Shown here: piece after piece, positions 4,331-32,315 of the stretch | Layout of the letters: every line of letters starts with the position of its first letter | Position numbering within the stretch: the first letter of the stretch is position 1 | Source: a virus | DNA: 32,817 nt | IMG/VR virus record: IMGVR_UViG_3300009528_000028 | Location: 1 to 32,817 of that record | Direction: 5' to 3' (one strand) | Notes under the pieces: model-generated | The model's input: only the letters and a program-made list of their open reading frames with translations | Database searches by the model: none | What the model was told of the DNA's origin: nothing | Position numbers and translations under genes: made by a program

Positions 4331-5746
4331 ATGAATAAGATAGCGTTTGTTAATCCCTTTCTTTCGACTAAAGATCGTTATGGGATTAAGTCTCAAGGTG
4401 GTGGACAGACACCACCTCTTGGTTTGGCTAATCTTGCGGCAATGACAAGGAAACATGGTTTTGAGACGGCTATTATAGATGCTTCGGCTTTAAAGATGGA
4501 TGCCGAAGAAGTGGCGAATAAAGTGAAGTTTGGCAGATTTGACTATGTGGGAATTACTGCGGTGACGATTTCTATTGAACAAGCAGCCGAAGTCGCAAGA
4601 CAGGTGAAAACTATGTGTCCAGAAGTTACTACAATTCTTGGTGGACCGCATATGAGTGCTACACCAGAAGAGACGATGTCAAAGTATCGGGAATTTGACA
4701 TAGGCGTAGTCGGAGAAGGAGATTACACTATAATTGATTTATTGCAGAGACTTGAAACAGGGAAGACCGTTGAGGACATTCCCGGTTTGATTGTCAGAAA
4801 CAACGGTTCTTTAATTGATACTGGTAAACGTCCACGAATAGAAAATCTGGACGATTTACCGCCCCCAGCGTTCGATCTGCTTCCAAGCTTGGCAAAGCAC
4901 TACTGTCCTCCTGTGCATACCGTCAAGAGGCTCCCAGGGGCTTTGCTGGTCGCTTCACGGGGCTGTCCCGGACAGTGCATATTCTGTGACCGCAGTGTAT
5001 TTGGCAACAAATTCCGGGCATACAGTGCGGACTATACTTTTGAACTCATAAAGGATTTGCATGATAATTATGGTATCAGAGAAATCCAATTGAGAGACGA
5101 CAACTTTACTGCTTCGCACTCTCGAATCTTGGGCTTGTGTGATAAGTTAGATGAAGCGGATTTCAAGATTAGCTGGACGTGTGCTGGGAGAGTCGATATG
5201 GTCAATCCCTCTATTTTGAAGGCTATGAAAGAAGCGGGCTGTTGGCAGATATGGTATGGCATTGAAAGTGGATCCCAAGCCGTCCTGGATGCAATCAAGA
5301 AACGCACCACGATCGCTCAAATAAAGAAGGCAATCCGAATGACTAAGGATGCTGGAATTAGTCCGTGTGGTTTCTTCATTATCGGTAATCCCGGTGAGAC
5401 GAAGGAAAGTTTGGAAGCTACTAAGAATTTTGCTTTAAGGTTGCCTTTGGACGAAGTTCACTTTTGCTTTATGACTCCGTTCCCAGGTTCTGAGTTATAT
5501 GAGCGGGTCGAAGAGTTCGGATCCTTCGAGAACGACTGGAGCAACCTTACATGCTGGTCGCCTGTCTTTGTTCCCAAAGGCTTAACCGTAGAGGATTTAG
5601 AATCCTGTTCTAAGAAAGCCTTCCGGCAGTTCTATTTTCGACCACGCATCGTGTTTTCTTATTTGAAGAAGATTCGTAGCTGGCGACATTTGAAGATTTA
5701 TTTTCATGGTTTTGTTGCACTTTTGGAATGGTTAAGGAAAAGATAA
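4331..5746 (+). CDS. B12-binding-type radical SAM enzyme
   Basis: A 471-residue protein with two domains. Residues 1-165 form a Rossmann-like cobalamin-binding type domain (IAFVNPF, PPLGLANLAAM, DYVGITAVT, ILGGPHMSATPEE, VGEGDYTIIDLL), the usual N-terminus of BchE/methyltransferase-type radical SAM proteins. Residues 203-400 carry the SAM domain with SRGCPGQCIFC (Cys212, Cys216, Cys219, the C-x3-C-x2-C cluster ligands), IQLRDDNFT, and WYGIESGSQ, then GFFIIGNPGET. The C-terminal 60 residues are basic and aromatic. Such enzymes methylate or rearrange unactivated carbons; the substrate cannot be read. In the cobalamin domain the classic DxHxxG is absent, as is common in this class. It directly precedes two secreted-protein genes (1-nt gap), so a surface or metabolic modification cargo is possible. 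Confidence 0.9.
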   Translation: MNKIAFVNPFLSTKDRYGIKSQGGGQTPPLGLANLAAMTRKHGFETAIIDASALKMDAEEVANKVKFGRFDYVGITAVTISIEQAAEVARQVKTMCPEVTTILGGPHMSATPEETMSKYREFDIGVVGEGDYTIIDLLQRLETGKTVEDIPGLIVRNNGSLIDTGKRPRIENLDDLPPPAFDLLPSLAKHYCPPVHTVKRLPGALLVASRGCPGQCIFCDRSVFGNKFRAYSADYTFELIKDLHDNYGIREIQLRDDNFTASHSRILGLCDKLDEADFKISWTCAGRVDMVNPSILKAMKEAGCWQIWYGIESGSQAVLDAIKKRTTIAQIKKAIRMTKDAGISPCGFFIIGNPGETKESLEATKNFALRLPLDEVHFCFMTPFPGSELYERVEEFGSFENDWSNLTCWSPVFVPKGLTVEDLESCSKKAFRQFYFRPRIVFSYLKKIRSWRHLKIYFHGFVALLEWLRKR

Positions 5747-8557: not shown

Positions 8558-9073
8558 TCAATTTACACAATGTCCAGAGATATTATAATCATCATCTTCT
8601 TTTCTTCCCCAATTCCACCCATACGTTGCTATTAAGTAGGCTTCAGCCAAAGCCACCGAGTCTTTACGACACCTATCTGTTGGTCTTAGGTTAATAGGTT
8701 TAGGATAGAGTTCCTTTGTTCGCAATATGGCCGAGTTTTTATCTTTAGGTAAACCATGCAACATCTTCTTTTTCCAAGTTTGTGGGGGAACATATTGAAG
8801 AGCAATGTGTCGACCTATGATAAGACCCTCCCAAATTCCAAAACCTCGACCGAAACTAAACATAGAAACAACGCCTTGACCTGGCATGGCATGAACTTTC
8901 TCTAACCACACTACATCCACTTGGGAAAGCAATTCACGCATCGCACGTATATCATATTCGTTTTTCTTCTTAATCTTTAGGGTGGGACAAATCTCCAAGC
9001 GAACTATCCAACCACCCTCATCCAACAAACAGATTGCCCCACCCTTTCCTGGATCAATTCCCGCAATTATCAT
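8558..9073 (-). CDS. RuvC-like Holliday-junction resolvase
   Basis: A 171-residue protein of RNase-H fold. It begins MIIAGIDPGKGGAICLL, with the first catalytic Asp in IDPG. Residues 55-85 carry WLEKVHAMPGQG and FSFGRGFG, holding the second acidic residue. PPQTWKKKMLHG follows, and the C-terminal KDSVALAEAYLIATYG helix carries the last acid (Asp), where related proteins have H/D-D-G/A-A-x-A. Phage members of this family resolve four-way DNA junctions or debranch DNA before packaging. The start at 9073 is chosen because GGAGGGGAAAG lies directly upstream and the IDPG strand should be close to the N-terminus; a longer in-frame extension exists to 9142. It overlaps the upstream gene by 20 nt. 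Confidence 0.85.
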   Translation of the reverse strand: MIIAGIDPGKGGAICLLDEGGWIVRLEICPTLKIKKKNEYDIRAMRELLSQVDVVWLEKVHAMPGQGVVSMFSFGRGFGIWEGLIIGRHIALQYVPPQTWKKKMLHGLPKDKNSAILRTKELYPKPINLRPTDRCRKDSVALAEAYLIATYGWNWGRKEDDDYNISGHCVN

Positions 9074-9374
9074 CTTTCCCCTCCGGTTTCTTGAGCTTGA
9101 GGACAAAGACTTGGAGCCTGTCGCCACGTTTAATGTCCTCAATCTCTGTATCGATTTTCAACTCAATGTGCTGACGTAGCGTTTTAGCAGTTCGAATAGA
9201 GTAACGTATACCACTAACCTCCGCCTCAAACCTGATCACATCAAGTTCACTACTTTTAAGGGCTTTGAATATATCATCTTCTTCCACAAAATTCCCGTCT
9301 GGTTCTGCAAGATTAAAGCAACCAAGCTGTTCCTTGAATTTCGTTTCGTCAATCACCAATATCTTCTTGCTCAT
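9054..9374 (-). CDS. Hypothetical 106-residue protein
   Basis: Lys/Glu-rich protein starting MSKKILVIDETKF and ending KLKKPEGKDDNCGN. The middle (about 45-90) contains a strand-rich RFEAEVSGIRYSIRTAKTLRQHIELKI segment. No family recognised. GGGAGGG lies just upstream of tandem ATGs (9377 and 9374); the second gives better spacing. The start overlaps the previous stop in ATGATGA, so translation is coupled to the upstream gene, and the 3' end overlaps the resolvase start. Confidence 0.65.
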   Translation of the reverse strand: MSKKILVIDETKFKEQLGCFNLAEPDGNFVEEDDIFKALKSSELDVIRFEAEVSGIRYSIRTAKTLRQHIELKIDTEIEDIKRGDRLQVFVLKLKKPEGKDDNCGN

Positions 9375-9966: not shown

Positions 9967-10167
9967 TCAGCCTTTCGATATAACTCGATTCCACTGTCGT
10001 AATTTTATAAATTCTTTTGTTTTTAGGCGTTCAAACTCAACCTGTTTTGTCTCATAAGAACCGCATGACAGATCACCGTCTATTTCGGGTTCTTCACCAC
10101 CAGTATCTGAAAGTTTACAAAACCCATAGTCATTATGATCGCAATCACGCATAGCACAATTAATCAT
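9967..10167 (-). CDS. Cys-rich 66-residue protein, likely zinc binding
   Basis: Residues 4-35 contain C-x4-C-D-H, then C, then a further C in GDLSCGSY, a spacing suited to a small metal-binding knuckle. The remainder is a basic helix. CAGGAGGTAATG lies upstream; the start overlaps the methyltransferase stop by 4 nt, so both are translated together. Function unknown. Confidence 0.65.
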   Translation of the reverse strand: MINCAMRDCDHNDYGFCKLSDTGGEEPEIDGDLSCGSYETKQVEFERLKTKEFIKLRQWNRVISKG

Positions 10168-10958
10168 AAATTCATTACCTCCTGTTTCAATCTCTCATTG
10201 GCAATGTCCACATACTTCTGATTGATCTCAAACCCGATGAACCGGCGGTTAAGCTGTTTGGCGGCTACGGCCGTGGTGCCTCCGCCAGCACAACAATCTA
10301 AAACAATTTCACCTACAAAACTAAAAAGAGAAACACATACACGGGCAAACTCTTCAGGAAACGGCGCTGGATGAATTCTATTTCTCTCTGCGGGGATCGT
10401 CCACGGCGAAGAGCAATATTCCCTAAAAAAGTCCCAGTTTATTTTTGATTGATCTTTTATTTCTTGTATGGGATAATCCGGTTTTCCTCGCTTGGCAGCC
10501 ACAATCACAAATTCACAATTATTCTTTATTGGAATTCCGTTCGGATAAGGATAGCTACCATAAAGAACGCTCTTACCATCCCCCCGTTGGTGTGCCTGTC
10601 TTATCTTATTCCAAATTACAGTATCCTTGAAACGGATACGCTCATCTCGCCATAAGTGTGATGTCAATAGTGCATGGCTTGGAAAACATTCATTTCCATC
10701 AGAACTAATCGTGTGGTGTGCATCATCTATGTTAATTATAATATGGCGGCCAGGTCTAATTAGTCGAATACATTCATCTGTCATAGCATAAAGAAACTCA
10801 AGATATTCCCTGTAATTTTTATATTGCTCATATTCTTTAAACATATAATACGGCGGACTTGTCACCACCAGATCCACGCACCCATCGGGCAACTGAGCCA
10901 TACCTTCAAGACAGTCGATACACTGGATTGTGTTTTCCCACTCTTTCAGCTTGGTCAT
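10164..10958 (-). CDS. DNA methyltransferase (N4-cytosine/N6-adenine, beta class)
   Basis: A 264-residue enzyme with the catalytic TSPPYY motif at residues 33-38 near the N-terminus and the SAM-binding motif DCCAGGGTTAVAA at 221-233 near the C-terminus; this permuted order defines the beta class. The HPAPFPEEFA block (196-205) is motif X-like. SPPY favours N4-cytosine methylation, though N6-adenine cannot be excluded. The target-recognition region is short (about 85-190), and the recognition sequence cannot be predicted. No restriction endonuclease adjoins it, so it is an orphan enzyme, probably protecting phage DNA from host restriction or marking it. Confidence 0.9.
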   Translation of the reverse strand: MTKLKEWENTIQCIDCLEGMAQLPDGCVDLVVTSPPYYMFKEYEQYKNYREYLEFLYAMTDECIRLIRPGRHIIINIDDAHHTISSDGNECFPSHALLTSHLWRDERIRFKDTVIWNKIRQAHQRGDGKSVLYGSYPYPNGIPIKNNCEFVIVAAKRGKPDYPIQEIKDQSKINWDFFREYCSSPWTIPAERNRIHPAPFPEEFARVCVSLFSFVGEIVLDCCAGGGTTAVAAKQLNRRFIGFEINQKYVDIANERLKQEVMNL

Positions 10959-21343: not shown

Positions 21344-21856
21344 TTACTGTGCCCGCAACATTGCCAATCTTTGACCATCCCGTTTCAGTTTCTTTAAAGA
21401 CCGCCTGAACGGTTCGATCTTATTCACTAAGATCATCCAGGTAGACATCGGCTTCAAATACTTCTCAAAGCTACGGTCAAGTTCTTGTCGGTGATGACCA
21501 AGATAGAGCTTGTTGGCATTCGATAGCTTAACCTTGTCTACGTGGTCATCCACAATAGCCTGCAAGCGTCCACAGTGGATGTTCTCCACGTATTTGTCTA
21601 CGTCCACCACCCGGTCATCATAGCAGACTTCTACAAAGTCAGGATCGGATGTTGACATAGCAGATGCCCGGATTTCTTCTCTGCGAAGAAGGTTAAGAAT
21701 AGTCTGCCGGGCAATTCTTAAAGCAAATTCGGATTCTTCTTCTGGTCTCTGCCACAAGACCAAGAAGCACTCTTGAGCAAAGTCCTCGCCTTGCCCGTTG
21801 CCATAGCGATGGGCAAGTCTATGGACCTGCTCCTGTAAGGTTTTTGATAGTTGCAT
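21344..21856 (-). CDS. Sigma-70-like (ECF region 2) protein
   Basis: A 170-residue protein. Residues 8-62 match sigma region 2 in composition and order: VHRLAHRYG, GEDFAQECFLVLWQRPEEE and ARQTILNLLRREE. The rest (about 70-170) is helical and basic (FEKYLKPMSTWMILVNKIEPFRRSLKKLKRDGQRLAM) without a convincing region 4 helix-turn-helix. Such proteins could redirect host RNA polymerase to late phage promoters or act as anti-sigma decoys. It is preceded by a perfect consensus promoter and a 128-nt leader whose repeats can pair with its start region. Its ribosome-binding site is GGAGTGAACG. Confidence 0.6.
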   Translation of the reverse strand: MQLSKTLQEQVHRLAHRYGNGQGEDFAQECFLVLWQRPEEESEFALRIARQTILNLLRREEIRASAMSTSDPDFVEVCYDDRVVDVDKYVENIHCGRLQAIVDDHVDKVKLSNANKLYLGHHRQELDRSFEKYLKPMSTWMILVNKIEPFRRSLKKLKRDGQRLAMLRAQ

Positions 21857-23472: not shown

Positions 23473-23599
23473 CTCACTAAAGAAATCTAAAGTCTTTGAA
23501 CGATACAACGAGCAAATACCCGTAAAAGACAGAGAATTGGAGCAATTAACCCTATTCATGGAGAAAAAGAGGGAAATTGGACGAAAAAGAGACAAATAA
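23462..23599 (+). CDS. 45-residue protein, GTG start
   Basis: A GTG at 23462 follows AGGAGCTATACTAC and opens a 45-codon frame overlapping the end of the initiator gene by 11 nt and the small terminase start by 23 nt. The product (MKLDSLKKSKVFERYNEQIP and so on) is basic and helical. Tight overlaps on both sides support it. Confidence 0.5.
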   Translation: MKLDSLKKSKVFERYNEQIPVKDRELEQLTLFMEKKREIGRKRDK

Positions 23600-24113
23600 C
23601 AAAAAAGTGAGTAAATTCGGTCCCAAGTTAGAACATGAACACAAGGAGCTTATAATTACAAGACTTGCAGAGTTTGTGTCTTGGGATAAGATACTTGAAG
23701 AATTACATGAAGGTTACAATATTGAGATCACTGAGCATACGATCAACTATTATTCTCGGAAGAAAGAAGAAATCCGGGCAAAGCGTGAATATCTCAACAC
23801 CCATCTCGAAGATCATATCCCCTTAGCTAACAAGACCTTAAGGGTTCAGATGTTGGAGAGGGATTTAAAGAGGCTCGAAGGTGCTACGGACTTGGACACA
23901 TTGAAGGTGAAGCGTGAATACCTTGAGCAGATACGCAAGGAGAAGGAGGGTCTCCGTGTGGATGTGACCAAGCGAGAGACTTGGACACCGGATCAGTTTA
24001 AGCACCTAAAGGACACCAAGGACTTGGATCGAGCTATCAAAGAAGCAGAGAAGAAGGACGGGGCCGCAAAGGATGAAGCTGTAACTCAGGTATTATTAGA
24101 GGACAAGACATGA
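23577..24113 (+). CDS. terS: Terminase small subunit-like protein
   Basis: A 178-residue protein directly upstream of the large subunit. An N-terminal helix-turn-helix-like region (KLEHEHKELIITRLAEFVSWDKILEELHEGYNIEITEHTINYYSRKK, about residues 17-63) is followed by an oligomerising helical region (LERDLKRLEGATDLDTLKVKREYLEQIRKEKEGLRVDV). Small terminase subunits recognise the packaging site and form rings. It begins with TTG after GAGGGAAA; a GTG at 23607 is an alternative. The gene symbol reflects position and fold, not close homology. Confidence 0.6.
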   Translation: MDEKETNNKKVSKFGPKLEHEHKELIITRLAEFVSWDKILEELHEGYNIEITEHTINYYSRKKEEIRAKREYLNTHLEDHIPLANKTLRVQMLERDLKRLEGATDLDTLKVKREYLEQIRKEKEGLRVDVTKRETWTPDQFKHLKDTKDLDRAIKEAEKKDGAAKDEAVTQVLLEDKT

Positions 24114-24283
24114 CAACCAGGATAAGCAATATAGCAACGGGTGAATCTTATCTTGTGGAGTCCATTGATGAATGTAGGGATTATACAGATCGTTTAGTAT
24201 ATAAGAGATTTCTTGAACTTGGGTCTGTTTGTGTTGGTAGGGTTCTTGTTGAGTCCGTAGTCTTAGAGAAGGATAAGGAATGA
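24110..24283 (+). CDS. 57-residue hypothetical between terminase genes
   Basis: Starts in an ATGA overlap with the small subunit and ends in an ATGA overlap with the large subunit. The product (MTTRISNIATGESYLVESID, then RVLVESVVLEKDKE) is neutral, beta-alpha-like, and unrecognised. Coupling with both terminase genes suggests a packaging-related role, which is inference. Confidence 0.6.
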   Translation: MTTRISNIATGESYLVESIDECRDYTDRLVYKRFLELGSVCVGRVLVESVVLEKDKE

Positions 24284-24909
24284 CTAAGCACTGGGAATCA
24301 TGGAACAAAGATCGGTTAGAGTTGAATTGGTTGAAGGCGATGCTTGACCCGTGGCACTTCTTGACCACCTTCGTCTATACCACCGACCCCCATGACGCCC
24401 TTCATCCTATTAAACTATTCCCATCGAAAAGTTACTTGCATTTTTTGGTTTCGGTTTGGTTACGTGAGCCCAAGCTTCTTGTTCCCAAGAGTCGTCAAAT
24501 TTTAGTTTCCTGGTGTATGGTTGCCTGTCATTTATGGTTAGCTATAACTAATCGGGGTCGATTTATTTACTTTCAATCTCAGAAGGAGGAGAAGGCGGAC
24601 AAGTTAATTCAGCGTGTTCATTTTATTTGCAAGCAGTTACCTCTAATGGTTCCTGAGTTTCGGTATACTTATTGTCGGTTGAGATTCGACGGGTTGGATT
24701 CGGTGATTGAGGGTGTTCCTCAGGGAGCGGACAGTATAAGACAAGAAACTTGCACGGCGATTTATTCGGATGAGATGGCATTTCAAGAAGAGGCGGAGAA
24801 GGCTTATATAGCGTCTAAGCCGACTATTGATGGTGGTGGGCGGTATACTGGGGTGAGTAGTGCCAACGGACCGAACTTTTTCAAGAGGTTGGTATTTGAT
24901 GAAGAGTGA
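24280..24909 (+). CDS. terL-N: Large terminase, N-terminal ATPase half
   Basis: A 209-residue protein that ends within the usual terminase large subunit. Walker A-like VPKSRQILVSW is at residues 68-78, Walker B TAIYSDEMAF at 159-168 with the catalytic Asp-Glu, and coupling motif SSAN at 193-196. The frame then stops at FKRLVFDEE, exactly where the linker to the nuclease domain begins. A full large subunit would be about 450-600 residues; the missing nuclease half is encoded at 25620-26495. All ATPase motifs are intact, so this looks like a functional separate chain rather than a decayed gene. Confidence 0.85.
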   Translation: MTKHWESWNKDRLELNWLKAMLDPWHFLTTFVYTTDPHDALHPIKLFPSKSYLHFLVSVWLREPKLLVPKSRQILVSWCMVACHLWLAITNRGRFIYFQSQKEEKADKLIQRVHFICKQLPLMVPEFRYTYCRLRFDGLDSVIEGVPQGADSIRQETCTAIYSDEMAFQEEAEKAYIASKPTIDGGGRYTGVSSANGPNFFKRLVFDEE

Positions 24910-25006
24910 CGGTGATTTCACATTACGGGTAGGCGACATTATGGTAGCGCCTATATTTTTCGGGGGACTAGGGAACAGGTTGAGGCTAAGAAGCGGGAGA
25001 TTTTGA
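24899..25006 (+). pseudogene. Degenerate copy of the 25007 gene
   Basis: A 35-codon frame overlapping the ATPase stop begins MKSDGDFTLRVGDIM, resembling SLRVGQII in the next gene. A shift of frame then yields YIFRGTREQVEAKKREIL, which matches LGVFSGTAEEVKAKKREL of the next gene. A 17-nt block (AGGCTAAGAAGCGGGAG) is identical at 24983-24999 and 25176-25192. It is best read as a frameshifted, shortened tandem copy. Confidence 0.5.
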
Positions 25007-25204
25007 ATGGCTGACAATGACATTGACATAAACGCTTTAATGGGGACTGCTTTTGTAAGGTCTCTCCGGGTGGGTCAGATTATTCTTGATCCGCATTCGG
25101 GGAATGACTGTTGGCTTGTGACTTCTTTGGAGGGGGAGCGTCTTGGTGTTTTTAGTGGAACGGCGGAGGAGGTAAAGGCTAAGAAGCGGGAGTTGGGGAT
25201 ATGA
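25007..25204 (+). CDS. 65-residue protein inside the split terminase
   Basis: MADNDIDINALMGTAFVRSLRVGQII, then DPHSGNDCWLVTSLEGERLGVFSGTAEEVKAKKRELGI. The second half looks like a small beta-sheet module with a helical end (V-x-S/T-L-x-G-x-R-x-G-V-F). It is the intact version of the degenerate copy before it, and its stop overlaps the next start. Function unknown. Confidence 0.55.
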   Translation: MADNDIDINALMGTAFVRSLRVGQIILDPHSGNDCWLVTSLEGERLGVFSGTAEEVKAKKRELGI

Positions 25205-25320
25205 TAATATTTGAAACAATCTTCCTTTCTGTGGCGTTATTGGTGGTAATTATTTGTGGGGTTAAGATATGGCAAAGTTGTAGGGAGATTGATAAGATTT
25301 TGGGTGATTATGATAAATAG
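25201..25320 (+). CDS. 39-residue membrane protein, tandem copy 1
   Basis: One hydrophobic helix (IIFETIFLSVALLVVIICGVKI), then CREIDKILGDYDK. It is a paralogue of the 25471 gene: both share a (V/L)ALxVVII(C/F)G(V/I)K core and REIDKILGD. The start overlaps the previous stop. Predicted single-span protein of unknown function. Confidence 0.55.
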   Translation: MIIFETIFLSVALLVVIICGVKIWQSCREIDKILGDYDK

Positions 25321-25465
25321 ACTTAGGCGAATTTGGCGTTTTATTTTTCGGCGTAGGCGAAGACCGATTCGATTTGGTCGGACTATTTCGATGGACGAAA
25401 AGATTGTGAGGCTTGAACCTGATCCAAAGGGTTTGTTTGCGGATGCTTTTACGAAGAAGGAGTAA
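25310..25465 (+). CDS. 51-residue basic protein
   Basis: Starts MINRLRRIWRFIFRRRRRPI, a strongly basic and aromatic N-terminus, then FGRTISMDEKIVRLEPDPKGLFADAFTKKE. The ATG at 25310 overlaps the previous stop (11 nt). The Arg-rich segment could bind nucleic acid or membrane. No family recognised. Confidence 0.5.
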   Translation: MINRLRRIWRFIFRRRRRPIRFGRTISMDEKIVRLEPDPKGLFADAFTKKE

Positions 25466-25470
25466 ATCCC

Positions 25471-25623
25471 ATGACTATTTTTGCAATAATATTTTGTTCT
25501 TTGGCATTAGTGGTGGTAATTATTTTTGGGATTAAGACATTGAAAATAAGCAGGGAGATTGATAAGATTTTGGGTGATGTGGAGGAGAAGTTGGATTACA
25601 TGAAGAAGGGGTTGGAGCTATGA
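25471..25623 (+). CDS. 50-residue membrane protein, tandem copy 2
   Basis: Encodes MTIFAIIFCSLALVVVIIFGIKT followed by SREIDKILGDVEEKLDYMKKGLEL. It is a paralogue of the 25201 gene with a longer coiled-coil tail, and overlaps the nuclease start as ATGA. The pair brackets the basic 25310 gene. Confidence 0.55.
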   Translation: MTIFAIIFCSLALVVVIIFGIKTLKISREIDKILGDVEEKLDYMKKGLEL

Positions 25624-26495
25624 GGGGTGTCACTTTCAAGAAGAATCCCAGGAATGATTTTGCGGTAGTTCGGTTGCATTACACGGCTGACCCGGACAAG
25701 GATCCGGCGACTGAGCGGGGTCGGGTTTGGCATGAGAACGTTCGGAGGGGTATGCCGCAGGAGGGATGGGAGCGGGAGTATGAGATTAATTTTACCACGA
25801 TGGAGGGCAAGCCTGTTTATGCTGATTTTAATATGGCTCAAGCTGTGCGGCTGAAATGGAACAAGACTTGGGTATTGTATCGGGGCTGGGATATGGGTTA
25901 TCATCGACCGGCGTGTCATTTCAGTTGTATCGACAACAAGGATCGGTGGTTGTGGTTATATAAAGAAAGTTTAGGATACGACATCAACCTTTTTGATTAC
26001 ATTGATTACATTGTTGATTTGACTCAGGCGAATTTTCCGAATGCTATGATTCGGGATTTTGTTCCGCATGATGCTCGGCACGTTGATGAGAAGGCAAGAG
26101 ATGAGAATCTCAATACGGATTTGAAGATTATGATTAGTAAGGGTTTGGCTCCTGAGATTTCTCCGATCACCAACGTATTTGACGGCGTGAAATTGATTCG
26201 TCACAAGATGTTGCTTCGCAAGGATGGGGAGTATGGAATGTTGGTGGATGACAGGAATAGTATTTCCATTGAGGCTTTGTGTGGTGGGTATCATCGGAAT
26301 CCGAAGGAGGGCAAGGGAGAGGAGATTGTGAAGGACGGTTATTTCGATCATTTGATGGATGCGGTGAGAGCTACGGCGGTGAACATTCTTAGTCCGGGTT
26401 CGGCAAGCGGTGTTTATGCGATTGAGGATGTTTCCCGGAATATGGGTTTTCCTGAATATAAATATCACCCGGTGACGGGAGAGATAATTGGATAG
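25620..26495 (+). CDS. terL-C: Large terminase, C-terminal nuclease half
   Basis: A 291-residue protein beginning MRGVTFKKNPRNDFAVVRLHYTADPDKD and continuing through EREYEINFTTMEGKPVYADF, the region that joins ATPase and nuclease in a normal large subunit. The RNase-H-type nuclease acids appear in GWDMG (Asp91), PHDARH (Asp151) and YFDHLMDAVRA (Asp243/Asp247). It starts about 710 nt after the ATPase half ends and in an overlap with the last small insert gene. The two halves together lack only roughly 10-20 linker residues. All motifs are intact. Confidence 0.85.
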   Translation: MRGVTFKKNPRNDFAVVRLHYTADPDKDPATERGRVWHENVRRGMPQEGWEREYEINFTTMEGKPVYADFNMAQAVRLKWNKTWVLYRGWDMGYHRPACHFSCIDNKDRWLWLYKESLGYDINLFDYIDYIVDLTQANFPNAMIRDFVPHDARHVDEKARDENLNTDLKIMISKGLAPEISPITNVFDGVKLIRHKMLLRKDGEYGMLVDDRNSISIEALCGGYHRNPKEGKGEEIVKDGYFDHLMDAVRATAVNILSPGSASGVYAIEDVSRNMGFPEYKYHPVTGEIIG

Positions 26496-26970: not shown

Positions 26971-27110
26971 GATTGATAAACTATACAGAAAGAGAAGCAA
27001 AGGAAGTTATGGGGTATCTTAGGGGTTTGAATAGGGAAGAATTTAAGGAATTTTTAAAAAGCATTGGTGTTAAATTTGGAAAAAAGATAGAAAATTGGTG
27101 GAGAAGTTGA
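26967..27110 (+). CDS. 47-residue hypothetical, GTG start
   Basis: GTG starts in a GTGA overlap. The product (VRLINYTEREAKEVMGYLRG, then EEFKEFLKSIGVKFGKKIENWWRS) is basic and helical. Its stop falls inside the first exact copy of the GGAGAAGTTGAAGTGA junction. Confidence 0.55.
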   Translation: MRLINYTEREAKEVMGYLRGLNREEFKEFLKSIGVKFGKKIENWWRS

Positions 27111-27111
27111 A

Positions 27112-27372
27112 GTGACGAAACTTAGGATTCTATTATCTTGTCTGTATCGTGTAGTCTTTAAGGTGTGGACTCATCCAATCGAAAATTACAAGTGCCACCT
27201 TGTTGCCAGGTTGCCAATTTTAGACATTGACATTACCGATCCCAGGACGCAGAATTCGCAAATTCTTAGTCGCCTCAATTTAATTGATTTTATTGGTTAT
27301 ATGCTTTCAATTTTTTGGTATCAATTTGTGCGGTTAAAAAATTTAGAGGGGATGGGAATATGGAGAAGTTGA
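27112..27372 (+). CDS. 86-residue hypothetical protein
   Basis: MTKLRILLSCLYRVVFKVWTHP is a partly hydrophobic, basic N-terminus; later stretches include ILDIDITDPRTQNSQILSRLNLIDFIGY, and it ends FVRLKNLEGMGIWRS. Perhaps membrane-associated. GTG start supplied by the junction repeat. No family recognised. Confidence 0.5.
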   Translation: MTKLRILLSCLYRVVFKVWTHPIENYKCHLVARLPILDIDITDPRTQNSQILSRLNLIDFIGYMLSIFWYQFVRLKNLEGMGIWRS

Positions 27373-27373
27373 A

Positions 27374-27604
27374 GTGAATAATAAGATTCCAGAATTTTCA
27401 ACTTTGGATTCGCCACTTGGGAGACTTTTGAAATCAAAGAAGTCGAGGGTGGTGAAGGTTAATTTTAAGCATCTTGAAGAAAAAGAATGCGTTGACATAA
27501 CGAATCACCCTGATCGAGTTTCGATTCAAAATTCGCTTTTGATTGAGAGTATTAAGAAAACGTTTCCTGAAGATTGGAAAGAAAGAGTGGAGAAGTTGAA
27601 GTGA
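27374..27604 (+). CDS. 76-residue hypothetical protein
   Basis: MNNKIPEFSTLDSPLGRLLKSKKSR, then VVKVNFKHLEEKECVDITNHPDRVSIQNSLLIESIKKTFPEDWKERVEKLK. GTG start from the second junction copy; its own 3' end forms the third. A short basic beta-helix protein of unknown role. Confidence 0.5.
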   Translation: MNNKIPEFSTLDSPLGRLLKSKKSRVVKVNFKHLEEKECVDITNHPDRVSIQNSLLIESIKKTFPEDWKERVEKLK

Positions 27605-27771
27605 GTGACGAGAAAAAGGAATTACAGGAAGATAAGGAAATATTTGAGGAGTTGGCATCCATAGAAGTAATTCCCGATGATCCCAAAAACGAAAAAACAG
27701 CTAAAGTGGTTCAACTTTTAATCACCTATGAGCTATTCTGGAAACCGTTTTTTATGAGACATAGAAACTAA
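27601..27771 (+). CDS. 56-residue hypothetical protein
   Basis: GTG start in a GTGA overlap. The product begins MSDEKKELQEDKEIFEELASIEVIPDDPKN and ends QLLITYELFWKPFFMRHRN. Last gene before the strong hairpin-terminator and portal. Confidence 0.5.
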   Translation: MSDEKKELQEDKEIFEELASIEVIPDDPKNEKTAKVVQLLITYELFWKPFFMRHRN

Positions 27772-27906: not shown

Positions 27907-29985
27907 ATGGTAAAGAAAAAAGATCGGGACGACATCCTCAAGATGAAGGATGAGGACATAATTTCTTTGGTTATGGCGGATTATTCTGTCGCCAAGCAAG
28001 CAAGGACAACGCCCAACGAAAAGAACAGGCGGTATCGGAAGGCTTACTTTCAGAAAGAATACGTTCCCGGAGTTTCGGAAAAGGAAGATCCCAAAGCCAA
28101 AACGGATGGACGTTCTCATGTGTGGATCGGAGTTACCCGTGCCATCGTTGACACTTTCGTTGCGGCAGTTGCGGGTTCCGTCTTTTCGGTGGATCCGTGT
28201 GCTAAGATCGAACCCACCGAAGAAGGGGACGAGGATGCCTCTCAGCAGTTTGAAAATCTCTTTGCCTATCGTGCCTCAAGACATCAGATGAACCTGAAAC
28301 ATCACTTCAAAAACAACTGGCTCTTTCAGGCAAGCCTTTATGATTATGCCATTGCACGAGTGGGATGGAAAATCGAAAAAGGGTATATGCCCCAGGTAAT
28401 TGATGTAGAGGGGGAAATAAAGCTCTCTAGGTTTCGTTATCCCCGAACCAGACAAGAGATAAAATTGATTCCCATATATGATGCCGTTGATCGCCCCGAT
28501 GTAGAGGTTTTAGATACCCTGCTTACCTATCCTGATCCCCATGCTACTGACTTCGATGATTCCCGCTATTTTATGTATCTCTCAAAAACCAATATATCAG
28601 CTATGAGGAAGCGGGAAAAGACTAAAGAGAACCCTTTTGGTTTTTATGAGAACATAGATAAGATAGAACCTAATTCCTATCCTGGCTTGGAAGCTTCCCA
28701 GAAAACCGAGGGTAAGGATGAGCTTGAAAAGCAATCCGAAGCTAACTTGGTTCAGTTGCTTCCCTACTATACCCCCAATGCGATGGTTGTGATTGCAAAT
28801 AATAAATGGGTAGTTCACAAAGAAGAGATGATGGGGTTTCCTTTCTCCAAGATGACTGTTGTGCAACCCAATCACCAGTGGAGCGGAGTCGGCATAGTCG
28901 AAGGCATAGAGCATCTGCAATTAGACATCAATCAGTTGGTCAGGTTAAGAAGGGATAACATAAATCTCATAGTCAATCCCATAGGCATAATAAATGAAAT
29001 TTTGTTTGCTCACAAAAAACAGGACTTTAAGACTCGCCCCAGTAAGATGCTGGGTATTCGTTTCGGTGATCCCACAAAGGCAATTCATTACGAGCGCCCC
29101 AGCGATGTAACACAGACCGTTACCCAAGAGGTTAATTTTCAGGTGGCTATGATGGAAAGAATCTCGATGGTGGGGGATACCATGCAGGGTATATGGCGAC
29201 AGGGGGGACGAAGAACCGCCACCGAAGCTTCCCAGGTAGCGGAAGGGGGGGCGAGTAGGATAGGGGAGGTTGCCAGGGAAATCGAGGAAAAGAATATCGT
29301 TGATATTGTCTACATGGTTTACAATCAGGAGCAACTTCATTTAACGGAAGAGGTAAAATACAGAATCTTGGGAAAACACGGGTATGAATATTTTAAGAGT
29401 CGCAAGGAGGACATTTTTCATAAGGGTGCCTTTGACGTTAGACCTATCGGGTCAAGATACGAGGCTAATCGAGTCGTTAAGGACAATCAATTCTTGCAAA
29501 CGGTAAGCATCGTTTCTCAAAACCCTGCCTTTATGCAAATAACGGATGCCCGGGAGGTATTGAAAAAGCTCTGGTCAATTAGAGAAAAGGACCCGGAGCG
29601 TTTCATACTGGATGGCGACAAAACCGATTACTCTATTCCGCCTGAGATGGAGAATATAATCCTGACGGGTGGATCGGATTTGGAGCCCGGGAACAGAGAT
29701 AAGCATGAAGAGCATATACCCATTCACCGGGGTTACACCGAAAGACCGGAGTTTATCAAATTACCCGTTGGTATTCAGGACAATTTTGAGAGACACATAC
29801 AGGCACACGAGCAGGCAATAGAGGCTATGGAACAGGTGGGCAAGCAAGGACAGACGGCTTTGCCTAATGAACCAGGTAACGTGTTGGGGCAACCATTCGA
29901 TAAGGCTCAGGCGGGTGGTTTGCAGAGTCCGGCGGGTGGGCGACCCGGAGGGGGGATGCCCGCACCCGTTGAAGGAGGAGGTTAG
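27907..29985 (+). CDS. Portal protein
   Basis: A 692-residue protein. Positively charged N-terminus, then YRKAYFQKEYVPGV and SHVWIGVTRAIVDTFVAAVAGSVFSVDP, a typical portal entry region, and YDAVDRPDVEVLDTLLTYPDPHAT, the portal wing motif (x-V-x-D-P-x-D-F/A-x-x-D-P analogue). Later MVGDTMQGIWRQGGRRTATEASQVAEGGASR resembles the stem helix. The Gly/Pro-rich C-terminus (GGLQSPAGGRPGGGMPAPVEGGG) is low complexity. Portals form the 12-mer DNA channel at the capsid vertex. No Shine-Dalgarno is seen before the ATG; the 5' leader is U/A-rich. Confidence 0.85.
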   Translation: MVKKKDRDDILKMKDEDIISLVMADYSVAKQARTTPNEKNRRYRKAYFQKEYVPGVSEKEDPKAKTDGRSHVWIGVTRAIVDTFVAAVAGSVFSVDPCAKIEPTEEGDEDASQQFENLFAYRASRHQMNLKHHFKNNWLFQASLYDYAIARVGWKIEKGYMPQVIDVEGEIKLSRFRYPRTRQEIKLIPIYDAVDRPDVEVLDTLLTYPDPHATDFDDSRYFMYLSKTNISAMRKREKTKENPFGFYENIDKIEPNSYPGLEASQKTEGKDELEKQSEANLVQLLPYYTPNAMVVIANNKWVVHKEEMMGFPFSKMTVVQPNHQWSGVGIVEGIEHLQLDINQLVRLRRDNINLIVNPIGIINEILFAHKKQDFKTRPSKMLGIRFGDPTKAIHYERPSDVTQTVTQEVNFQVAMMERISMVGDTMQGIWRQGGRRTATEASQVAEGGASRIGEVAREIEEKNIVDIVYMVYNQEQLHLTEEVKYRILGKHGYEYFKSRKEDIFHKGAFDVRPIGSRYEANRVVKDNQFLQTVSIVSQNPAFMQITDAREVLKKLWSIREKDPERFILDGDKTDYSIPPEMENIILTGGSDLEPGNRDKHEEHIPIHRGYTERPEFIKLPVGIQDNFERHIQAHEQAIEAMEQVGKQGQTALPNEPGNVLGQPFDKAQAGGLQSPAGGRPGGGMPAPVEGGG

Positions 29986-31124: not shown

Positions 31125-32315
31125 ATGGCACTACAAGTGAGACGCTCGGTAGATGAAGTCTTAGCCCAGAGCAAGATTTTACACATGGATGAGGCTATAC
31201 GGTTACTTTTGCCGGAGGCGGCACCCGTGACTACCATGACGATGAAAGCAAGTAAGAAACCGGTAAATAACCCAACTTTTTACCACAGGGAACGGGAAGC
31301 TTTTCCACGTTGGGTGACTATCCTGAATGGCGAGACCGCTGCGGCTACCACGCCGGATGTTTCGGATGCCCATGGTGAATATTTCAATCTTAGCACCTCT
31401 ATTGGCACATGGGGTGTTCAGCTTTTCATCCCCAGAACCGGGGAGATAATGCTGGTTATGATTGAGAGTGCCGGAGCTTTGACTTCCGTGAGAAGGGGTG
31501 TTGGCGGAACAACGGCGGCTGCTCTTCTGGCTGGTGATGATGCCTTTATCATGGGTCCTGCCAGCAGAGAAGATGGAGTAGCTCCCGAAGCCAATATGGT
31601 CTTAGAAGTGCTCAAGACTTTCTACACGATGATTATGAAGAAGTCAACTCTGGTTACCAAGTCGGCTGTGGCTACTGCCATGTATCATGGTAACGATAGG
31701 TTGTTTGAACAGAGAGTCGCCGGTATTGAGCACAAGTTGGAGATGGAGCTTCAACTGCTCTTAGGTGGAACCGGTGCTTCGACAGACCATGATACCGCCA
31801 GTGTTTACTATCGTCATTCGGCGGGTTTGAATGGAACCATTACCTCGCATGTGGTAGACGTGGATGGTATTTTAACCGAACCGGTATTCTGGAGTTTGTT
31901 AGAGGATTGCTCCGAATACCATTATGCTGATTGGTTGTTGGCTGCTTCTCCACGAGTGCTTGGCGCTATCAACGGCTGGGGTATCAATAAAGTGCAACTT
32001 TCCCCCAAATCAAAAGAGTATGGGGTGGATTTGCAAATGATAATTACCCCACATGGTAATGTCCATCTGGCTAAGGAGAACATCCTTCGTGGGGATCACC
32101 TATCGGGTTATGCTTTCTTGATTCCAATGCCGATTGAGAACTTTATCAAGTATCGTCCGCTGTCGGCTAACGGTGAGAACCGTGACACCAGATTGAAACT
32201 GGACATCAAAAAAGATGACGACCCGGATTACTACAAGGATGAATGGCATACCGAATTTGGCTTCGAGATTTACGAAGAGAGCAAGTTCGGACAGTTAATC
32301 GGAGTGACAGGCTAA
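31125..32315 (+). CDS. Major capsid protein, HK97-fold type
   Basis: A 396-residue protein downstream of portal and scaffold. The strand- and helix-rich sequence with EREAFPRWVTILNGETAAATTPDV, an early beta region (YFNLSTSIGTWGVQLFIPRTGEIMLVM), a central long helix (FEQRVAGIEHKLEMELQLLLGG), and a later ASPRVLGAINGW / VDLQMIITPHGNVHLAKENIL region with a C-terminal beta tail suits an HK97-like capsid of the larger, non-cleaved SU10/DUF5309 group. GGGAGG precedes the start by 10 nt. Assigned by position and fold pattern. Confidence 0.7.
   Translation: MALQVRRSVDEVLAQSKILHMDEAIRLLLPEAAPVTTMTMKASKKPVNNPTFYHREREAFPRWVTILNGETAAATTPDVSDAHGEYFNLSTSIGTWGVQLFIPRTGEIMLVMIESAGALTSVRRGVGGTTAAALLAGDDAFIMGPASREDGVAPEANMVLEVLKTFYTMIMKKSTLVTKSAVATAMYHGNDRLFEQRVAGIEHKLEMELQLLLGGTGASTDHDTASVYYRHSAGLNGTITSHVVDVDGILTEPVFWSLLEDCSEYHYADWLLAASPRVLGAINGWGINKVQLSPKSKEYGVDLQMIITPHGNVHLAKENILRGDHLSGYAFLIPMPIENFIKYRPLSANGENRDTRLKLDIKKDDDPDYYKDEWHTEFGFEIYEESKFGQLIGVTG

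Follow-up and report, generated by a model that had tools for sequence, protein, structure and literature searches.

In most phages the large terminase subunit (TerL) of the packaging motor is a single polypeptide. That of D6E runs from an ATPase core through a lid and a 12-residue linker (residues 230-241) to the nuclease (PMC5727402), and in models of TerL the arginine of the P-loop changes its contact to a glutamate of the lid once hydrolysis has occurred, the lid relaying the motion (PMC7617512). How the DNA-moving part of the terminase is driven by ATP hydrolysis in the core is still debated, and reviews of phage T4 hold that the chain must stay unbroken at the linker (PMC3012670, PMC9958956). 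A split TerL as such is already known: the Arthrobacter cluster AY phages, viable in culture, carry separate consecutive ATPase and nuclease terminase genes (PMC11920828). Here we describe a TerL encoded by two genes in IMG/VR virus record IMGVR_UViG_3300009528_000028 (positions 1 to 32,817; the whole stretch of 32,817 nucleotides (nt) is called the window hereafter). In the clade of this phage the break lies elsewhere: in several lineages it separates core from lid, within the ATPase domain. We read the two products as a natural two-chain large terminase, a core (chain A) and a lid-nuclease (chain B) predicted to re-associate without a covalent link, and give this reading a probability of roughly 70%.

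Where the terminase chain is broken

Chain A (positions 24280-24909, plus strand; 209 amino acids (aa)) comprises the TerL ASCE ATPase core and ends before the lid, and chain B (25620-26495, plus strand; 291 aa) comprises the probable ATPase lid and the TerL nuclease. As stated in the original prediction, made from the sequence alone, these are two intact open reading frames (ORFs), and the 710 nt that separate them hold four small genes and one degenerate gene. The ORF calls of the window place them in different frames, so that the core, lid and nuclease of a conventional single-chain TerL are here divided between two ORFs. Single-sequence searches were weak for the terminase halves; profiles and structures were decisive. 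Hidden Markov models (HMMs) of the clade score chain A at 285.6 bits and chain B at 294.1 bits, and find only one ATPase match and one nuclease match in the window. The profile built from 36 ATPase halves matches T4 gp17 (E 4.6e-23), which bears out the terminase assignment.

The AlphaFold model of chain A (predicted local distance difference test score, pLDDT, 94.6) matches residues 62-304 of T4 gp17 with a Z score of 23.8. Chain A has the P-loop, Walker B and motif III of the ASCE core of TerL, all three at the places first proposed: the Walker A region at residues 68-78 (VPKSRQILVSW; 24481-24513, plus strand), Walker B at residues 159-168 (24754-24783, plus strand) and motif III, SSAN, at residues 193-196 (24856-24867, plus strand), 13 residues before the ORF stops. 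Among 36 relatives K70 and R72 of Walker A, R154, and D164 and E165 of Walker B are invariant. The Walker A glycine is absent throughout the clade, the window phage included (KSRQ-x-x-x-S/T-W), and its loss is therefore no defect of this phage.

The AlphaFold model of chain B (pLDDT 84.4) matches residues 232-417 of the D6E TerL (Z 19.7) and residues 361-561 of T4 gp17 (Z 14.5), and in both cases the match starts at chain B residue 61-64. From these matches and from conservation, residues 61-259 (25800-26396, plus strand) form the RNase H-fold nuclease domain, with the three acidic residues of the TerL family. Two of them, D91 (25890-25892) and D151 (26070-26072), had been named correctly; the motif around D151 is PHDA, against DPAG in most relatives. 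The proposed third, Asp243, falls in a variable column, whereas column 247, preceded by H244, is Asp in 31 of 36 relatives, so that the third catalytic residue is D247 (H244/D247, 26349-26360, plus strand as for the others). E53, G89, D91 and G93 are invariant among the relatives. The remaining N-terminal part, about residues 1-60 (25620-25799, plus strand), which contains E53, is assigned to the lid by its position between the equivalents of T4 residues 304 and 361, by conservation and by the continuous relatives, in which the matching stretch directly follows the core; the structural matches barely cover it.

The break was originally placed exactly before the ATPase-nuclease linker. The structure matches to T4 gp17 and D6E put it before the lid: chain A ends at the equivalent of T4 gp17 residue 304 and the nuclease proper begins at the equivalents of T4 361 and D6E 232, so the modelled break lies between the ASCE core and the lid, ~55 residues upstream of the linker. 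The same position recurs among relatives. Of 33 distinct split pairs, 32 have an ATPase ORF that stops 13-25 residues past motif III, before the lid; in the exception, L039, the ORF continues through its small downstream gene as a longer fused tail. The lid remains with the nuclease in the split pairs.

Compared with T4 gp17, then, both folds are retained (Z 23.8 for the core and 14.5 for the nuclease), but gp17 is one chain, and the window phage is broken upstream of its lid. The likeness to the cluster AY phages (for example BillyTP, PP978841, and Auxilium, MH834598) is that TerL comes from two genes, which in cluster AY are consecutive. Judged by sequence, however, the BillyTP ATPase chain (359 aa) appears to include a lid-like stretch after motif III, and its nuclease chain (198 aa) to start just before the first catalytic Asp. 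Cluster AY genes share 17 nt and have no insert between them, whereas the window has 710 nt with inserted genes and a break before the lid, and thus has neither the break after the lid nor the adjacent genes of the AY type; relatives of the window phage differ further in swapped gene order. The notion that nature avoids the lid/nuclease linker was dropped, as cluster AY phages appear to break there. The phi29 ATPase is similar in needing no active nuclease on its own chain (PMC9410871), but its vestigial nuclease domain is still part of that chain, whereas the window phage has an intact nuclease on a gene of its own. Judged by the open-licence literature, what is new is the break between core and lid, the accumulation of genes in the gap and the swap in gene order; phrase searches of that literature found no earlier report of the core/lid variant.

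Split, continuous and swapped relatives

Relatives were collected by nuclease-alignment scans, 80 loci each, and sorted by profiles of both halves. After deduplication the tree set contained 32 split pairs and 9 continuous genes, counts that give no estimate of how frequent the split is, because sampling was seeded with split sequences. The expectation of a single TerL polypeptide is valid for most phages, though not for much of this clade or for cluster AY. The split pairs comprise 18 with inserts, 7 adjacent (<100 nt apart) and 7 in swapped order. In the swapped loci (7 distinct pairs from 10 metagenome numbers) the nuclease gene lies upstream and the ATPase gene downstream, and no second ATPase match was found on the strand searched.

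The continuous relatives (L032, L034, L036, L062, L028, L107) share the core, putative lid, nuclease and clade motifs with the window phage. In these a single ORF spans both parts; the aligned domain edges are 33-75 nt apart, and additional genes are absent. The genes found in the gaps of split relatives resemble one another within close groups only, with no similarity between lineages, and therefore look like later, local additions. A scan of genome contigs with query A4 gave 14 loci, the near relatives including one further split pair (L168), on a 111-kb contig of a Chloroflexi metagenome-assembled genome, and one continuous gene (L167). The same scan with the L110 nuclease gave no matches, and no plasmid relatives were found. 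In the nearest cultured or named matches (MW202803, MW202637, MW202477, OQ414635) the genes are continuous.

In split relatives, purifying selection acts on each half. Three groups of split phages with unsaturated dS gave ratios of nonsynonymous to synonymous substitution rates (dN/dS) of 0.03-0.12, for both halves in two of them but for the nuclease half only in the swapped group. Evolutionary distances of the two halves are correlated (0.94) in split and in continuous genes alike, which fits joint function but also simple co-inheritance. The swapped group forms a single clade in the concatenated tree (support 100/100), and the split persists over deep divergence, with 25-45% identity between lineages. 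Split and continuous states require at least five changes, three of them forced by well-supported branches. On this tree the changes may have run in either direction, and the split may have arisen repeatedly or been undone by re-fusion.

Three relatives (L010:3370-4698, L105:3608-4879, L109:3689-4888) carry an extra N-terminal stretch on the nuclease chain with two CxxC pairs, zinc-finger-like, as with HNH proteins. It sits where the link to the core would be.

A probable two-chain motor and its alternatives

The conservation of the split across the clade, the swapped order in one lineage and the purifying selection on both halves support the original suggestion that two intact genes act as a two-chain motor; the TerS-like, portal and capsid neighbours of the pair were also counted in favour of it. 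In such a motor a stop codon and a new start codon would stand in place of the loop that joins core and lid in an ordinary TerL, and the intergenic stretch between them would be free to collect small genes. Chains A and B would most likely re-associate at the core-lid face, probably with A:B pairs arranged as a ring at the portal. The lid of chain B would be driven by the binding and hydrolysis of ATP in chain A, and this motion, given core-lid docking, would still reach the nuclease because lid and nuclease are on one chain. The contact between the chains may be made by P-loop Arg72 and a lid glutamate, for which Glu53 is the candidate. The association of A with B, its stoichiometry and the packaging activity of the pair are predictions of this scheme. 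We also consider it probable, with somewhat less confidence, that the relatives form a clade with an obligately two-subunit packaging motor, each ATP site built across two polypeptides, in one lineage of which the gene order is reversed.

Several points weigh against the two-chain motor. The A:B complex is something that we infer. T4 gp17 split at the linker loses translocation, although both enzyme activities are kept, and neither ATPase nor packaging survives mutations at the T4 NsubI-NsubII (core-lid) junction (PMC3012670, PMC9958956). The genome may extend beyond the window, and a second TerL could lie in the missing part; the seven adjacent split pairs could be frameshifts. The dN/dS values come from split relatives only, the window phage having no close non-identical relative.

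Alternatively, the products might be two separate enzymes that form no stable complex, a phi29-like ATPase-only motor and, for cutting the genome, a free headful nuclease. The swapped order and the unlinked spacing would suit this arrangement, as they show that joint production of the two is not required, and phi29 does package its DNA with an ATPase that has a vestigial, inactive nuclease domain (PMC9410871). We consider it unlikely. The lid, which in known TerL proteins is part of the ATPase domain, always accompanies the nuclease, leaving chain A without one, and conservation extends to core and lid alike. The active site of the nuclease, unlike that of phi29, is intact.

Much less probable is a single polypeptide formed after all, through an undescribed intron, trans-splicing or ribosome bypass that joins the ORFs. 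The two parts do form one ORF in the continuous relatives. The insert, however, is packed with genes, the nuclease has its own start, which overlaps the preceding stop, and the gap differs in length and content in every lineage, the order being reversed in one. An Rfam search for introns or ribozymes, a database that covers described RNA families only, gave no match in the window, at the gathering thresholds or at E up to 1, or in 15 relatives, in agreement with the earlier statement that no intron core is evident. The same held for inteins: none was found at the break, where there is no room for split-intein halves, because the ATPase ORF ends 13 residues past motif III and chain B starts at the lid.

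Decay of the terminase of a defective phage, to which the degenerate gene within the insert might point, is very improbable, as all motifs are intact, dN/dS is low in split relatives and the split is kept across deep divergence. An assembly error can practically be dismissed even for a metagenome contig judged without reads, since a similar split occurs in many unrelated contigs and a second IMG/VR contig (L001; 9206 aligned bases, in which the only gap is 1 nt long) has the same sequence throughout the split region.

In these phages core-lid coupling becomes directly testable, since the two proteins can be made separately and then mixed. Annotation pipelines that expect one TerL gene will miscall such phages.

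Intein-like insertions occur in three relatives, only inside the nuclease half and at motifs of its active site. L022 (4399-7293) has two, after RGWDFG..HPA and at the YYDH motif; L008 (886-2724) and L093 (2548-4431) have one each, at a Y-Y/W-D-N/H motif.

Neighbouring genes and other features of the window

The insert between chains A and B consists of four short genes, overlapping or nearly abutting, and one degenerate copy, all on the plus strand. The degenerate copy (24910-25006) abuts the ATPase stop codon and derives from the gene at 25007, 44 nt being 77% identical to 25149-25192. That gene (25007-25204) is an ORF of 65 aa and unknown function. It is followed by a gene of 39 aa with a hydrophobic N-terminus (25201-25320), an Arg-rich ORF of 51 aa and unknown function (25310-25465) and a gene of 50 aa, again with a hydrophobic N-terminus (25471-25623), the stop of which overlaps the nuclease start (ATGA). 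The genes at 25201 and 25471 are duplicates, with 81% identity over 108 nt.

Directly upstream of chain A, a gene on the plus strand (23577-24113) is the candidate small terminase subunit (TerS). It matches PHROG 546, of unknown function (E 2.5e-9), and its match to DUF2280 falls below the cut-off of that family; the TerS role is thus a putative one. Downstream, also on the plus strand, lie a portal protein of the SU10 type (27907-29985; PF23899, E 1.2e-18; PHROG 1216 portal, E 1.1e-20) and a major capsid protein of the same type (31125-32315; PF17236, E 7e-16). Between nuclease and portal, within 27099-27613, a 26-nt repeat (TGGAGAAGTTGAAGTGA...) occurs three times, each time where one small gene meets the next, a pattern suggestive of expansion by duplication of genes.

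Elsewhere in this phage record, positions 4331-5746 encode a protein with B12-binding and radical SAM domains (both Pfam E about 1e-23). The minus strand encodes a sigma-70 region 2 protein (21344-21856), an N6/N4 DNA methyltransferase (10164-10958) and a Holliday-junction resolvase (8558-9142).
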